A stretch of DNA of 64,000 nt, from contig ONEB01000004.1 in NCBI GenBank assembly GCA_900316745.1, positions 117,071 to 181,070 of the forward strand, in the 5' to 3' direction. Below, piece after piece: positions 2,497 through 29,503 of the stretch. The notes beneath the pieces are model-generated. The model searched no databases, was not told the DNA's origin, and saw only the letters and a program-made list of their open reading frames with translations. The translations under genes and the position numbers were made by a program. Origin of the DNA: an uncultured Eubacteriales bacterium. GTDB taxonomy: Bacteria; Bacillota; Clostridia; Oscillospirales; Oscillospiraceae. How positions within the stretch are numbered: the stretch's first letter is position 1; each line of letters begins with the position of its first letter.

Positions 2497-2773
2497 GCGC
2501 CTGTCAAAGAAAGGGCGTATAATGCGATGAAGCGGGAGATTGCAGCGATTCGCTGGTAACTTCCGTGGAGTATGTCCGCTGTCGGGCTGTTGTTCCGGCA
2601 GACAATCGGGCGGCTGAGCAATACCTGCACTTGCGTATATCACCTGTGTGGGACAACGCCGGCAAGCATGTTGCCGGTTTGTTTTTCGGACAGGGTTTGA
2701 TACGCACGGAACAGTGTATGGCTTTTTGCTCATCCGTACGAACCCACAAACATTCGTAACGGAGGAAAACACA
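2497..2773 (+). ncRNA. rpsJ-operon leader with attenuator-like hairpin (candidate)
   Basis: The untranslated leader between the promoter and rpsJ is about 280 nt. It contains a 7-bp stem at 2579-2601 (CTGTCGG / CCGGCAG, one G-U) and a terminator-like hairpin at 2659-2677 (CCGGCAA, loop GCATG, TTGCCGG). The second hairpin is followed by TTTGTTTTT at 2678-2686, about 87 nt before the rpsJ start. A terminator inside the leader of an S10 operon suggests attenuation by a ribosomal protein (L4 does this in enterobacteria). The regulator here is unknown. A 10-codon open frame at 2527-2559 is not supported. Confidence 0.45.
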
Positions 2774-25553: not shown

Positions 25554-27437
25554 ATGAAAAAATCGAGAATTCTCAGCATTCTGCTTGCTTTGTGTCTCGC
25601 GTGCAGTCTGCTCGTCCCGACTGCGGCGGCAGCAGGAGCATTTGTTGATGTGCCTGCCGATGCCTATTATAAAGACGCCGTGGACTGGGCCGTCACGCGC
25701 GGCATCACGGACGGCACCACCGCGACGACGTTTTCGCCGAACGCAAGCTGCACCCGCGCGCAGATGGTCACGTTTCTGTGGCGCATGAACGGCTCGCCCG
25801 TCGTGCAAAACAAGACCGTGCCGTTTGTGGATGTGGCTCCGACAAGCTACTATTATAACGCCGTCCTATGGGCGACCACGCAGGGTATCACCGAGGGCAC
25901 GGACGACACGCACTTCAGCCCGAACGACAAGGTCACCCGCGCGCAGGCCGTCACATTCCTGTGGCGCGCCGACGGCTCGAAGAAGCCCACCGGAAGCTCC
26001 GGCTTTGCCGATGTCCCGGCAGACGCCTACTACGCCGACGCTGTGGCATGGGCAAAGGAGCAGGGCATCACCGACGGCAAGGACGCGCAGCACTTCGCGC
26101 CGAACGACGACTGCACCCGCGCGCAGATCGTCACGTTCCTGTACCGCTATGCCTGCGGAAGCGGTTCCGTGCTCACGACCACGAAGTATCCGGTCATCCT
26201 CGTCCACGGTCTGCTCGGCTGGGGTGAGTATGACGACATCAACGGCCTGATCCCGTATTTTGGCATGACGGCGACGAATACCGTGAAGTATCTGCGCAGT
26301 CTGGGCGTCGAGGCTTATGCGGCGTCCGTCGGACCGCTCTCCAGTGCATGGGATCGAGCCTGCGAGCTCTATGCGCAGCTCACCGGTACCGTCACCGATT
26401 ACGGCGCTGCCCACTCTGCCAAATACGGTCATGACCGCTACGGCCGCGACTATTCCGGCGGACAGTATTCCAAGCTCATCGACGGCGTCTGGGATGCCAA
26501 GCACCCGATCAACCTCGTCGGCCACAGCTTCGGCGGCGCGACGAGCCGTCTGATGCTCGATCTGCTGGCCGAAGGCAGTGCCGAGGAACAAGTCTACATG
26601 AAGGCACACCCCGAGTGCGGCAGAATCTCCCCGCTCTTCACGGGCGGCAAGGCGGATTGGATCCATTCCATCACGGCACTGGCCGCACCGTCGAACGGCA
26701 CGACGTTCATCGAAGCCAACAACGTCTTTACCTTTACCATCGCGCAGCTCGGCGAGGAGCTGTCTAAGATCCTCGGCCTCAGCTCGTTTAAAGGTCTTTA
26801 TGATTTCCAGCTCGAGCATTTCGGCCTTCAGCCGACGCCGGGTGAGGACTTTACGACCGCGCTGAAGAACGCTTTGACGTCCAAGTTCCTGAACCATAAC
26901 GACAACGCGTTCCACGACCTTACGATCGACAAGGCACTGTATATCAACAAGGATATCCAGATGCAGCCGAACGTCTACTACTTCTCGTACTACGGCAACC
27001 GCATGCTGAACGACCCGATCGCCGGCGTGATGCGCCCGTCTCCGCGTATGTGGTTCGTGGTTCAGATCCAGGCTGCCAGAATGGGACAGTACATCGGCAC
27101 CACCGAGGGCAAGTTTGCCGACGGCTACGGCGACTACCGCAAGCTTGTTTCCGTGACGCCCACCACGACGGATTCCTCCTGGTGGCCGAACGACGGACTT
27201 GTGAACGTTGTCTCCGGACGCTGGCCGGCGCATTGGGACAACGGCCGCTGGGTCGAGGACCCGCATGTGGCGGCAAACGTCGGCGTGACCGGCGCGCGTC
27301 CCGGGACCTGGTACGTCATGCCGGAACTGTTCTTCGATCATCTGAGCTTCTGCGGCGGACTGCTGAACGAAAACAGTTTTGAGATCACGCATTTCTACGA
27401 CGGCATGATCTCCAACATCGTCAACTGCGGCGGATAA
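25554..27437 (+). CDS. cell-surface lipase with three N-terminal SLH domains
   Basis: 627 residues. A signal peptide ends near residue 26 (PTAAAAG). Three SLH repeats follow at about 28-80, 89-140 and 149-200. The rest is an alpha/beta hydrolase resembling staphylococcal/Geobacillus (family I.5/I.6) lipases: oxyanion segment PVILVHGLLGWGEYDD at 213-228 and nucleophile elbow GHSFGG with Ser325. Later SSWWPNDGLVN and the LFFDHLSF stretch supply likely Asp and His of the triad. It would act on lipid or other esters at the cell surface. GGAGGAG upstream sets the ATG. Confidence 0.85.
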   Translation: MKKSRILSILLALCLACSLLVPTAAAAGAFVDVPADAYYKDAVDWAVTRGITDGTTATTFSPNASCTRAQMVTFLWRMNGSPVVQNKTVPFVDVAPTSYYYNAVLWATTQGITEGTDDTHFSPNDKVTRAQAVTFLWRADGSKKPTGSSGFADVPADAYYADAVAWAKEQGITDGKDAQHFAPNDDCTRAQIVTFLYRYACGSGSVLTTTKYPVILVHGLLGWGEYDDINGLIPYFGMTATNTVKYLRSLGVEAYAASVGPLSSAWDRACELYAQLTGTVTDYGAAHSAKYGHDRYGRDYSGGQYSKLIDGVWDAKHPINLVGHSFGGATSRLMLDLLAEGSAEEQVYMKAHPECGRISPLFTGGKADWIHSITALAAPSNGTTFIEANNVFTFTIAQLGEELSKILGLSSFKGLYDFQLEHFGLQPTPGEDFTTALKNALTSKFLNHNDNAFHDLTIDKALYINKDIQMQPNVYYFSYYGNRMLNDPIAGVMRPSPRMWFVVQIQAARMGQYIGTTEGKFADGYGDYRKLVSVTPTTTDSSWWPNDGLVNVVSGRWPAHWDNGRWVEDPHVAANVGVTGARPGTWYVMPELFFDHLSFCGGLLNENSFEITHFYDGMISNIVNCGG

Positions 27438-27448
27438 GCCTTCGGCTT

Positions 27449-27645
27449 CACAGGAAGTCCTCAAGAGGACTTCCTGTGAGGAGAACTGCATAAAACCGGA
27501 CGCTCTTGGACGAAAGTGCGACTTTCGCGAAAAGAGCGTCCGGTTTCATGATAGCTATTTTTGCACGCCCGGCGAAGCCGCGCGGCAAAAAAGATTCGAT
27601 TCTATTTGCCGCTGCGGCGGCAAACTCTGCGAGGCAGAATAACGA
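27449..27645 (+). repeat. dispersed palindromic element, family R2, copy A
   Basis: Begins 11 nt after the lipase stop with a perfect palindrome CACAGGAAGTCCTC-AA-GAGGACTTCCTGTG (27449-27478). Next come AGGAGAACTGCA, then a 15-bp outer stem AAACCGGACGCTCTT (27493-27507)/AAGAGCGTCCGGTTT (27532-27546) enclosing CGAAAGT-GCG-ACTTTCG. Near the end are the GC-rich palindrome-like TTTGCCGCTGCGGCGGCAAA (27605-27624) and TGCGAGGCA. The same order of parts is found on the minus strand at 28851-29063. Confidence 0.75.
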
Positions 27646-27647
27646 AA

Positions 27648-27686
27648 AAAACAGGCTGTCCGATTCGGACAGCCTGTTTTGGTGTG
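27648..27686 (-). terminator. terminator of the rplJ-rplL operon
   Basis: AAAACAGGCTGTCC (27648-27661), loop, GGACAGCCTGTTTT (27667-27680). On the minus strand the stem is followed by TTTTTTTCG. Confidence 0.9.
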
Positions 27687-27696
27687 TAAGGTTTTC

Positions 27697-28074
27697 TTAC
27701 TTGAGTTCGACGGTGGCGCCGACAGCCTCGAGCTGCTTCTTGAGCTCTTCGGCCTCGTCCTTGGAGACAGCTTCCTTCAGGACAGCGGGCACGCCCTCGA
27801 CCTTCGCCTTCGCCTCGGCGAGGCCCAGGCCGGTGATGCCGCGGACTTCCTTGATGACCTTGATCTTCTGATCGCCGAAGCCGGTCAGAACGACGTCAAA
27901 CTCGGTCTTCTCCTCAGCAGCGGCAGCAGCGCCGGCGCCAGCGGCGGGAGCGGCAACAGCAGCAGCGGCGGAAACGCCGAAGACATCCTCGATTTCGTGA
28001 ACGAGCTCGGACAGCTCGAGAACGGACATAGCCTTGATCTCTTCGATCAGAGCAGTGACTTTTTCGCTAGCCAT
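27697..28074 (-). CDS. rplL: 50S ribosomal protein L7/L12
   Basis: 125 residues. N-terminal dimerisation helix region, Ala/Gly-rich hinge ([20 protein letters not shown]), then the C-terminal domain [20 protein letters not shown] and [20 protein letters not shown] that recruits translation GTPases. 48 nt downstream of rplJ. GGAGG upstream. Confidence 0.97.
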
Positions 28075-28122
28075 TTGTAATTTCCTCCTAATAATTGTTT
28101 TGAGTGGGGTTGCCGGTGAGAT

Positions 28123-28665
28123 TTACTCGGCAGCTTCTTCAGCAGCGGGCTCCGCGCTCTCGAGAGAGCCGCCCTTCTGCTCGACGACCTGACCCAGAGC
28201 GACGGCCAGGCTGGTGATGGGTGCGAGCATGGTGCCAAGCACCTTGGCAAGCAGCGCATCCTTGTTGGACAGAGCGGAGATCTCGGCGATCTCGGCCTCG
28301 GAGAGAATCTTACCCTCCAGGAACGCGCCCTTGATGGTGAACTTGTCCTTCATCTTCTCAGACGCCTCGTGGATGAGACGGATGGGAACGATGGGATCGC
28401 TCGTGCTGGTTGCGAGAGACGTGGTACCGTTCAGGATACCGTCGAGCTCTTCGAGGCCGCACTTGTCGAGAGCGAAGCGGACGAGGGTGTTCTTCACGAC
28501 GGAATACTCAACCTCATTCTGACGCAGCTCGGAACGCAGCGCGGTATCTTCGGCGACGGTGATGCCCTTGTAATCGACAAACACGCCAGAGGCTGCGTTC
28601 TGCAGACGCTCGGTAAGCGCTGCGACGACCGCCTGTTTCTCGCTGAGGACTTTTGCGTTCGGCAT
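28123..28665 (-). CDS. rplJ: 50S ribosomal protein L10
   Basis: 180 residues. VFVDYKGITVAEDTALRSEL and VVKNTLVRFALDKCG are L10, the base of the L7/L12 stalk. C-terminus ends in an acidic helix (SAEPAAEEAAE). Controlled by the L10 leader upstream, which L10 (with L7/L12) binds. Confidence 0.97.
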   Translation of the reverse strand: MPNAKVLSEKQAVVAALTERLQNAASGVFVDYKGITVAEDTALRSELRQNEVEYSVVKNTLVRFALDKCGLEELDGILNGTTSLATSTSDPIVPIRLIHEASEKMKDKFTIKGAFLEGKILSEAEIAEISALSNKDALLAKVLGTMLAPITSLAVALGQVVEQKGGSLESAEPAAEEAAE

Positions 28666-28707
28666 TTGTGTGTTTCACCTCCAAGTGATAGATCAAACAC
28701 GCCCAAG

Positions 28708-28740
28708 AAAAAACTCCGGAACAGACTGCTCCGGAGTTTC
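28708..28740 (-). terminator. attenuator terminator in the rplJ leader
   Basis: AAACTCCGGA (28711-28720) pairs with TCCGGAGTTT (28730-28739). On the minus strand it is followed by TTTTTTC, 42 nt before the rplJ start, and lies between the L10 binding element and the gene. Confidence 0.85.
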
Positions 28741-28812
28741 AATAGATCATCAATAAATTGATGCATCCTCGGCAGGCTTTACACCTTTCGGCTACCTACT
28801 GTCTTTGGAGCG
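28741..28812 (-). ncRNA. ribosomal protein L10 leader RNA
   Basis: The minus strand reads AAAGACAGTAGGTAGCCGAA, then AGGTGTAAAGCCTGCCGAGG, the conserved kink-turn-containing core of the L10 leader family (known from Firmicutes). It is followed by TGCATCAATTTATTGATG and the terminator stem. When L10-L7/L12 is in excess it is expected to stabilise the form that terminates. Confidence 0.88.
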
Positions 28813-28819
28813 CCCAATT

Positions 28820-28848
28820 AATATAACAAATACAGATTCAGATGTCAA
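28820..28848 (-). promoter_or_regulatory. promoter of the rplJ-rplL operon
   Basis: On the minus strand TTGACA (28848-28843), 17-nt spacer, TATATT (28825-28820), a few bases upstream of the L10 leader core. Confidence 0.85.
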
Positions 28849-28850
28849 GC

Positions 28851-29063
28851 GTTTTTTCAAGAAAAAACAAGGGAAAATGCCTCGCATGCGTTTGCCGCCG
28901 CAGCGGCAAATGAAATCTGATCCGTTCTCCCGGCGCGGATTCGCCGCGGCGTGGAAAACACTCTACACGAAACGGCTTCCTCTTTTCGCGAAAGTCGTAC
29001 TTTCGTCCAAGAGAAAGCCGTGCAGTGCAGTCTCTTCCATCCAAAAGCATGGCTTTTGGATGG
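28851..29063 (-). repeat. dispersed palindromic element, family R2, copy B
   Basis: Read on the minus strand from 29063 (2 nt after the MarR stop), it opens with the palindrome CCATCCAAAAGC-CAT-GCTTTTGGATGG. It continues with AAGAGACTGCA, an outer stem CGGCTTTCTCTT/AAGAGGAAGCCG around GGACGAAAGTACGACTTTCG, then ATTTGCCGCTGCGGCGGCAA and TGCGAGGCA. It ends at the palindrome GTTTTTTC-TT-GAAAAAAC (28851-28868). Same parts in the same order as 27449-27645; the stem arms differ in sequence but still pair. Confidence 0.75.
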
Positions 29064-29065
29064 AC

Positions 29066-29503
29066 TCACATCTCCGTTTCCGGCATGAGCTCGTCGGCGA
29101 TCACGCCGAGCATGCTGGCGAAGGTCTGCACCTCGTCGGGCGTGAAGCGCTCGTCGATGCGCTGCATGACGGTGTCCACATAGCCTTTCATGAGGCCGTT
29201 GTAGTTGTAGTATTTCTCGGTGAGCTTCAGGTGGTACTCGCGGCGGTCAATGTCGGAGTTTTCCTTCATGATATAGCCTTTTTTGATGAGGCTGTTGACC
29301 TTGTAGGTGGCGTTGGACTGCGAGATGCCGAGAAAGTCGGCAAACTGGCTGATGGTGGGGCTCTGCATCTGGTGGATGATCTCCACGGCAAACGCCTCCA
29401 TTGCGCTCAGCGAGCCCTCGCGCTCCTTGACCAGACCGAACAGACGGCGGAAAAACTCGATCTTGAACTTATCGTATACGCGGATGAAATTGGTTTCCAG
29501 CAA
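29066..29503 (-). CDS. MarR-family transcriptional regulator
   Basis: 145 residues. Winged helix visible as MQSPTISQFADFLGISQSNA, then TYKVNSLIKKGYIMKENSDI and DRREYHLKLTEK. Third gene of a minus-strand operon behind the LUD and DUF308 genes, so it probably regulates that operon. Ligand unknown; the LUD partner hints at a redox or organic-acid signal. Confidence 0.85.
   Translation of the reverse strand: MLETNFIRVYDKFKIEFFRRLFGLVKEREGSLSAMEAFAVEIIHQMQSPTISQFADFLGISQSNATYKVNSLIKKGYIMKENSDIDRREYHLKLTEKYYNYNGLMKGYVDTVMQRIDERFTPDEVQTFASMLGVIADELMPETEM

Follow-up and report, generated by a model that had tools for sequence, protein, structure and literature searches.

A gene-less, MITE-like element on both sides of rplJ-rplL in an Oscillospiraceae genome, probably mobilised by IS1182-type transposases and inserted at terminator hairpins

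The bcr1 repeats of the Bacillus cereus group are mobile, about 150 nt long and share a conserved fold. The element described here can be likened to bcr1 by description only, and its host group differs. MITEs are mainly derived from insertion sequences (ISs) (PMC10969869). QMITE2 of Coxiella resembles the present element in being short (about 190 bp) and gene-less, with inverted-repeat ends, direct repeats and a stable fold (PMC10969869). Unlike MITEs of IS origin, the element has a tail that was not seen at the ends of two candidate partner ISs, and conservation of both its fold and its tail extends over many genera of a single family. The small intergenic repeats SPRITE, RUP and BOX of pneumococcus are a further parallel; some are terminator-like, and some insert into one another, as an insert nested within the present element seems to do (PMC10969869). 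In the portion of that paper drawn on here, no palindrome duplication of the element's kind is described for these repeats (PMC10969869).

Among insertion sequences, IS1272 of Staphylococcus, a member of the IS1182 family, is directed to inverted repeats, which it presumably replaces (PMC5678879). The model proposed for it includes replacement or duplication of the stem-loop, and IS1272 itself is reported to lack target duplications (PMC5678879). The element and IS1272 are alike in the family of the transposase, which for the element is that of its presumed partner (IS1182, NF033551), and in taking inverted-repeat structure, not sequence, as the target (PMC5678879). IS1272 targets measure 21-85 bp under model A of that paper (PMC5678879), compared with 21-42 bp for the duplications beside the element. 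The two differ in that IS1272 carries its own transposase (PMC5678879), whereas the element has no gene and often duplicates the palindrome.

No description of the element was found in the open literature, most subscription journals being outside coverage. We conclude that the two segments flanking rplJ-rplL are very probably old copies of a gene-less, MITE-like element that is moved by an IS1182-type transposase and inserts at intrinsic terminators. The element is MITE-like and terminator-seeking, with an unusually conserved fold and a presumed dependence on IS1182-type transposases.

Two copies in the window and their relatives

The window, meaning the whole 64,000-nt stretch of DNA analysed here, contains two adjacent genes that we take, from their protein sequences, to be rplJ and rplL. 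They are flanked by two copies of one structured element in inverted orientation, both about 188 nt long and without a transposase gene; the listed ORFs that cross the copies extend into neighbouring sequence. Copy A (27450-27637, + strand) and copy B (28877-29063, - strand) are short forms with an identical order of parts, which the earlier note had described from the letters and which is present in both copies as read here. The parts are a variable palindrome (H1), a purine-rich CTGCA linker, a long stem (H2) whose outer part varies and whose inner hairpin, GGACGAAAGTNCGACTTTCGCG, is fixed, then H3, H4 and a tail that terminates in TGCGAGGC.

On the + strand in copy A, H1 (27446-27481) lies shortly 3' of the stop codon of the upstream gene, which ends at 27437, and corresponds to a diverged counterpart of the terminal-inverted-repeat hairpin seen in younger copies. 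H2 (27486-27554) combines a variable outer stem with the conserved inner hairpin GGACGAAAGTGCGACTTTCGCG at 27508-27529, and H3 (27558-27591) has an apical part that is the position of inserts in longer forms. The H4 palindrome TTTGCCGCTGCGGCGGCAAA (27605-27624) is followed by the tail CTCTGCGAGGC (27625-27635), one of the most conserved stretches of the family. In copy B, H1 starts 2 nt past the stop codon of a MarR-type gene (29066-29503, - strand). A covariance model of the 3' half (R1) matches copy A at 27545-27637 (+) with 75.2 bits and copy B at 28877-28971 (-) with 57.4 bits.

The core GGACGAAAGTNCGACTTTCGCG is found at 27508-27529 (+) and 28987-29008 (-); with up to three mismatches it occurs at no third place in the window. 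In 100 shuffles the core had 0 matches. The TTTGCCGCTGCGGCGGCAAA palindromes at 27605-27624 (+) and 28891-28910 (-) also match the opposite strand with two mismatches. No inverted repeats in the window are longer than the two that copies A and B form, of 48 nt (85%) and 43 nt (81%), and both copies fold far better than dinucleotide shuffles, with z-scores of -9.85 for copy A and -6.74 for copy B (0/200 shuffles as good in each case).

Beyond the window, the core with up to three mismatches marks eight places in the window's genome. Six are short forms and two are long forms (L007 and L008) with roughly 180 extra nt within H3; a third long form (L089) is without the core. The 3'-half covariance model, built from 42 sequences, finds 26 matches in this genome. 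Every one of the 10 genus genomes yields matches, 70 in G201, 47 in G079 and 1-14 in the others. The genome-wide search for further copies that the earlier note had proposed thus bears out its dispersed non-coding element. The note would have given the idea up had there been no more copies in the genome and an alignment no better than shuffled sequence; the eight core places and the 26 model matches contradict that condition.

Of 101 family genomes, 32 contain the exact tail pattern, GCNAACTCTGCGAGGC, compared with none for the reversed control. In a class-wide draw of 291 genomes it was found in two, the only rows marked as own or same family, and in 0 of the 289 class genomes outside the family. 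A longer tail pattern matched at least 118 stretches among named genomes. Among the 80 matches listed, the labels are Oscillospiraceae, Ruminococcaceae, Clostridia, Eubacteriales, Bacillota and single genera, the last including Papillibacter, Flavonifractor, Pseudoflavonifractor and Oscillibacter. This tail search of named genomes succeeded where the exact core pattern gave none; the exact core had 0 matches in the genome contig collection, from which the window's own genome was possibly left out. With up to two mismatches, the core was detected in 3 of 200 family genomes, namely the window's own and two with a single match.

Several observations concern variation within the family. Within H3 of L007 (1561-1755), L008 and L089 lies a second dispersed palindromic family of about 185 nt (CGTCAGAAGAAACTCGCTCC...CATTCCGACG). 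This family has partial matches elsewhere in the window's genome (G000), at C23:25602, C34:81481, C27:39174, C31:10250, C28:56278 and C20:107868, and dozens of partial matches in G079. Two other inserts, AGAAGGTGAATTGCCCC... and CTACGACTCGC..., are each found repeatedly in relatives (L103, L186, L191, L212, L214; L133, L206, L217) at the GTACA apex of H3, as if the apex itself were a landing site. A variant tail, with CTGCTGAGAGC / CTGCCGAGAGC replacing CTGCGAGGC, is common to L085 (G000) and L094 (G201). At L287 (G000:C26:53300-54300) the upstream gene's stop codon seems to form part of the 5' arm of H1.

Ends, palindromic duplications and a candidate transposase family

Younger copies, in G079 and in named relatives, have boundaries like GAGACTGTCGAAAAA...TTTTTTGACAAGCTG, often with the same hairpin just outside on both sides. 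Terminal inverted repeats are clear in these young relatives and are not recognisable at both ends of the window copies. A flanking direct repeat with a score of at least 40 accompanies 51 of 146 distinct elements, a set that includes related copies and in which G079 supplies 14 of the 51 positives; the other 95 are without a duplication at this score. The control gave 1 of 730 mismatched flank pairs, the partner being any other element, possibly from the same genome. On inspection 49 of the 51 repeats stand, with lengths of 21-42 bp, and most are a terminator-like palindrome. The two that were dropped are at L116 (wrong geometry, among tRNA genes) and at L076, where the supposed repeat is an H1-type hairpin belonging to the element itself. 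At L074 the left copy of the duplication abuts the H2 region directly and there is no H1.

Perfect stems of at least 8 bp are present in 42 of the 51 repeats and in 3 of 1020 shuffles, with nine repeats below 8 bp. This perfect-stem test was used instead of minimum-energy folding, which alone was uninformative (hairpins of seven pairs in 51/51 repeats and in 263/510 shuffles). A cruciform mechanism could show itself as loops inverted between the two palindrome copies; the loops have the same orientation in 46 of 51 cases, are inverted in three and ambiguous in two.

Gene context was scored with a rough codon score (threshold 15) for 154 elements. Of these, 59 lie between two gene ends and 4 between two gene starts. 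A gene end is found on the H1 side only in 33 and on the tail side only in 15, a modest orientation bias, and one or both neighbours are unclear in 43. Because the duplications are palindromic and the context is that of gene ends, the preferred target is taken to be the terminator-like hairpin of a gene. As for a replication-direction bias, oriented GC skew was positive in 79 of 140 elements (binomial p 0.15, t-test p 0.04).

Empty and occupied sites among relatives were seen at rplL and pnp. Six relatives, judged by eye, have a terminator-like hairpin shortly past the pnp stop codon and no element in 330 nt. In the window's genome, H1 lies directly past that stop codon with no separate hairpin, as if the hairpin had been replaced by the element, and G201 holds a copy with a terminator-like hairpin as its H1.

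Seventeen copies in the window's genome, copies A and B among them, were tested for a flanking duplication; none has one (scores 10-19), and the ends of the tested copies have diverged. A search of this genome for an IS1182 gene likewise gave none. With both the duplications and a detectable IS1182 gene missing, the window copies appear to be old.

Full insertion sequences with ends like those of the element were found in relatives. The transposases at L223 (308 bits), L222 (397 bits) and L229 (385 bits) exceed the IS1182 family cut-off (NF033551, 270). The IS at L223, in a genome that also holds elements L124 and L181, is bounded by GCCTGTCGAAAAA/TTTCTCGACAAACTG and flanked by a palindromic duplication of 25 bp; its reading frame covers profile positions 81-488 only, with the first 80 missing, and the transposase gene may be incomplete. 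The IS at L229 has the ends CAGACTGTCGAAAAAC/GGTTCTTCGACAGTCTG and a 35-bp duplication with an inverted loop. Ends of the element type also lie beside palindromes at L222, L228 and L230, without a matching duplication. In total, 5 of the 14 IS loci inspected (L221-L234) have such an end beside a palindrome, and two have both ends and a duplication. A broken copy under the cut-off (L236), outside the 14, has such ends as well, and none was seen at L239, a locus whose frame also took in its neighbours. Neither the L223 IS nor the L229 IS showed the conserved element tail in its end sequences. Among the loci fetched before the IS1182 loci, no IS-sized end pair with duplications was found. A DDE match in G079 (L219) was rejected as a partner; it is closest to an IS5-type model and has no such ends.

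Across the family, 9 of 101 genomes have an IS1182 match over the cut-off (L227-L234 and L239). The exact tail occurs in 2 of these 9 and in 30 of the 92 others, and there is no co-occurrence at this level. Eight IS loci over the cut-off were fetched from this sample; such ends are present in L228, L229 and L230 (G011, G066 and G071), and the tail is present in G011 and G066. The five loci without such an end beside a palindrome are all in genomes without the tail.

The element is too short for a transposase gene and is therefore not itself an IS1182 member. The earlier note had suggested a transposase encoded elsewhere, and this idea gains support, the ends and duplications pointing to the IS1182 family as the likely class. 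We infer from sequence both that IS1182-type transposases move the element and when they did so. Dispersal, defined ends, palindrome-long duplications, ends matching those of IS1182 ISs and polymorphic sites are directly apparent on comparing the sequences.

In the proposed mechanism, a full insertion sequence would provide an IS1182-family transposase that recognises the ends GAGACTGTCGAAAAA / TTTTTTGACAAGCTG, and the element would insert at a palindrome, usually the intrinsic terminator behind a gene. In young copies a whole terminator hairpin is indeed found on both sides; each neighbouring gene thus retains one, and the cost of insertion should be small. An element that seeks out terminator hairpins and leaves one on either side would reach nearly harmless sites. 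Replacement of the hairpin may be a second outcome, suggested at pnp only. The roughly 49 cases of a hairpin-duplicating outcome, all in one bacterial family, correspond to a branch of the IS1272 model.

Fold, covariation and strand bias

The interior fold is conserved across genera, and something beyond end recognition may therefore keep the interior. In 13 genus sequences, 96.4% of cells are paired and 32 of 49 pairs have changed on both sides. The covariation score is 0.498, compared with 0.187 for shuffles (0/500) and at most 0.11 for slid structures, although relatedness of the copies weakens these statistics. Further pair types show no excess over shuffles (209/500). A covariance model, which the earlier note had called for, was built for the 3' half.

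The two kinds of mismatch are unequal in number. On the H1-to-tail strand, 144 elements contain 142 A.C and 22 G.T mismatches, a count from which 59 of 203 candidate tails with an unrecognisable H4 were left out. Counted by distinct contexts, A.C against G.T is 18 to 1 in H1 and 39 to 5 in H3, the latter largely at one position, compared with 13 to 9 in H2 and 2 to 2 in H4. The mean advantage of the tail-to-H1 strand in folding is 3.7 kcal/mol after shuffle correction, and 88 of 120 non-redundant elements show it. Copy B runs against this trend (-91.1 and -86.4 kcal/mol, the H1-to-tail strand being lower), and single copies thus need not follow it. The bias suggests that the tail-to-H1 strand is under selection, whether as RNA or single-stranded DNA; part of the asymmetry might instead be due to the terminal repeat being kept in the 5' arm of H1. 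With a clade-wide fold, strong covariation and a strand bias, RNA-level selection on the interior of a MITE becomes testable.

The covariation score, the double-changed pairs, the A.C excess and the better folding of one strand would also fit a structured RNA or single-stranded DNA, folded from the tail-to-H1 strand, that has a cellular or element-specific job and uses the mobile ends as a vehicle. We regard this as possible but rather unlikely, given that the asymmetry is largely one recurrent H3 position plus H1, with little or none in H2 and H4, that the 5' arm of H1 doubles as a terminal repeat, and that further pair types do not rise above shuffles. At the gathering score, no Rfam family covers the elements, either in the window or at 14 related loci, which also speaks against such an RNA. 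A permissive Rfam search, run on copy A alone, returned sub-threshold matches, the best (E 0.012) to SR1 and over the rplL terminator. Nor does either copy contain a match to a sigma-70-like promoter, a further point against this reading. A weak terminator-like match at the tail of copy B (28867-28885, - strand) is no commoner than in shuffles.

Palindromes can be corrected by template switching during DNA replication. If the stems were perfect only through such correction, the fold itself would be unselected, and this could explain why both sides of H1 and of the outer H2 stem evolve rapidly, even between sister-genome copies that share a site (L015/L018, L016/L017), yet remain largely paired. 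Template switching should show no preference for A.C over G.T, however, and should not preserve motifs such as CTCTGCGAGGC across genera. As a full account of the fold we consider it doubtful, although conceivable.

A mobile structured RNA gene, family-wide and read from tail to H1, might instead have captured IS1182 ends, with duplicated host terminators giving it a nearly harmless place to land and also the boundaries of its own transcription; we think this unlikely. REP/REPIN-type palindromes, tagged with GTAG or CGTC and moved by a RAYT transposase, would likewise be short, intergenic, palindromic and dispersed, but the inverted-repeat ends, the 21-42-bp palindromic duplications and the IS1182 ends suit a DDE transposase better, and a REP origin is highly improbable. 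Of the earlier note's choice between a REP/MITE-like element and a structured RNA, the MITE-like character, with a conserved fold, is supported, and the ends and duplications point away from the REP type.

Neighbourhood of copies A and B

The MITE-like copies occupy different gene contexts. An S-layer/lipase-like gene and rplL converge on copy A, which lies between their ends, and copy B lies behind the MarR-type gene. Between the copies, and outside the element, are rplL (27697-28074) and rplJ (28123-28665), both on the - strand. The terminator-like hairpin of rplL (27648-27680, -) is retained between rplL and copy A. On the other side, the L10 (rplJ) leader identified by Rfam (L10_leader, RF00557; 28698-28826, -) lies between copy B and rplJ, and a promoter-like site for rplJ-rplL (TTGACA-17-TATATT; 28820-28848, -) lies 28 nt past the copy B tail. 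An S10-Clostridia leader (RF03136) at window positions 2519-2605 (+) is, like L10_leader, an ordinary ribosomal-protein leader.

Among relatives, the rplL site holds a near-full copy in G153 and G200, in the orientation opposite to copy A, and remnants in G202 (30.1 bits) and G204 (28.5 bits). No model match was found there in G201, G079 or G205, of which G079 retains an H1-like hairpin. The MarR site carries the element in one of nine relatives examined (L024, G202), oriented as copy B, and the two may represent a common old insertion; the other eight relatives are without a model match at this site. Most genes next to rplJL vary across the genus genomes examined; rplL of G201 is followed by a TetR-type gene (51% identical), oriented relative to it as in the window.

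The two copies around rplJL are best interpreted as products of separate insertions. With differing gene contexts and two sites occupied in different sets of genomes, the flanking of an essential operon, which the earlier note had pointed out, looks like coincidence. Its suggestion that copies A and B, inverted relative to each other and about 1.3-1.4 kb apart, could recombine so as to invert rplJ-rplL is scarcely credible, as the homology is imperfect and extends over 48 and 43 nt only, the two insertion contexts differ, and no inverted form was seen among relatives, most of which have different flanks.

At L016 and L017, the remnants at the one site 3' of rplL in G202 and G204, the H2 stems are rewritten on both arms, and the flanking terminator and genes are nearly identical.
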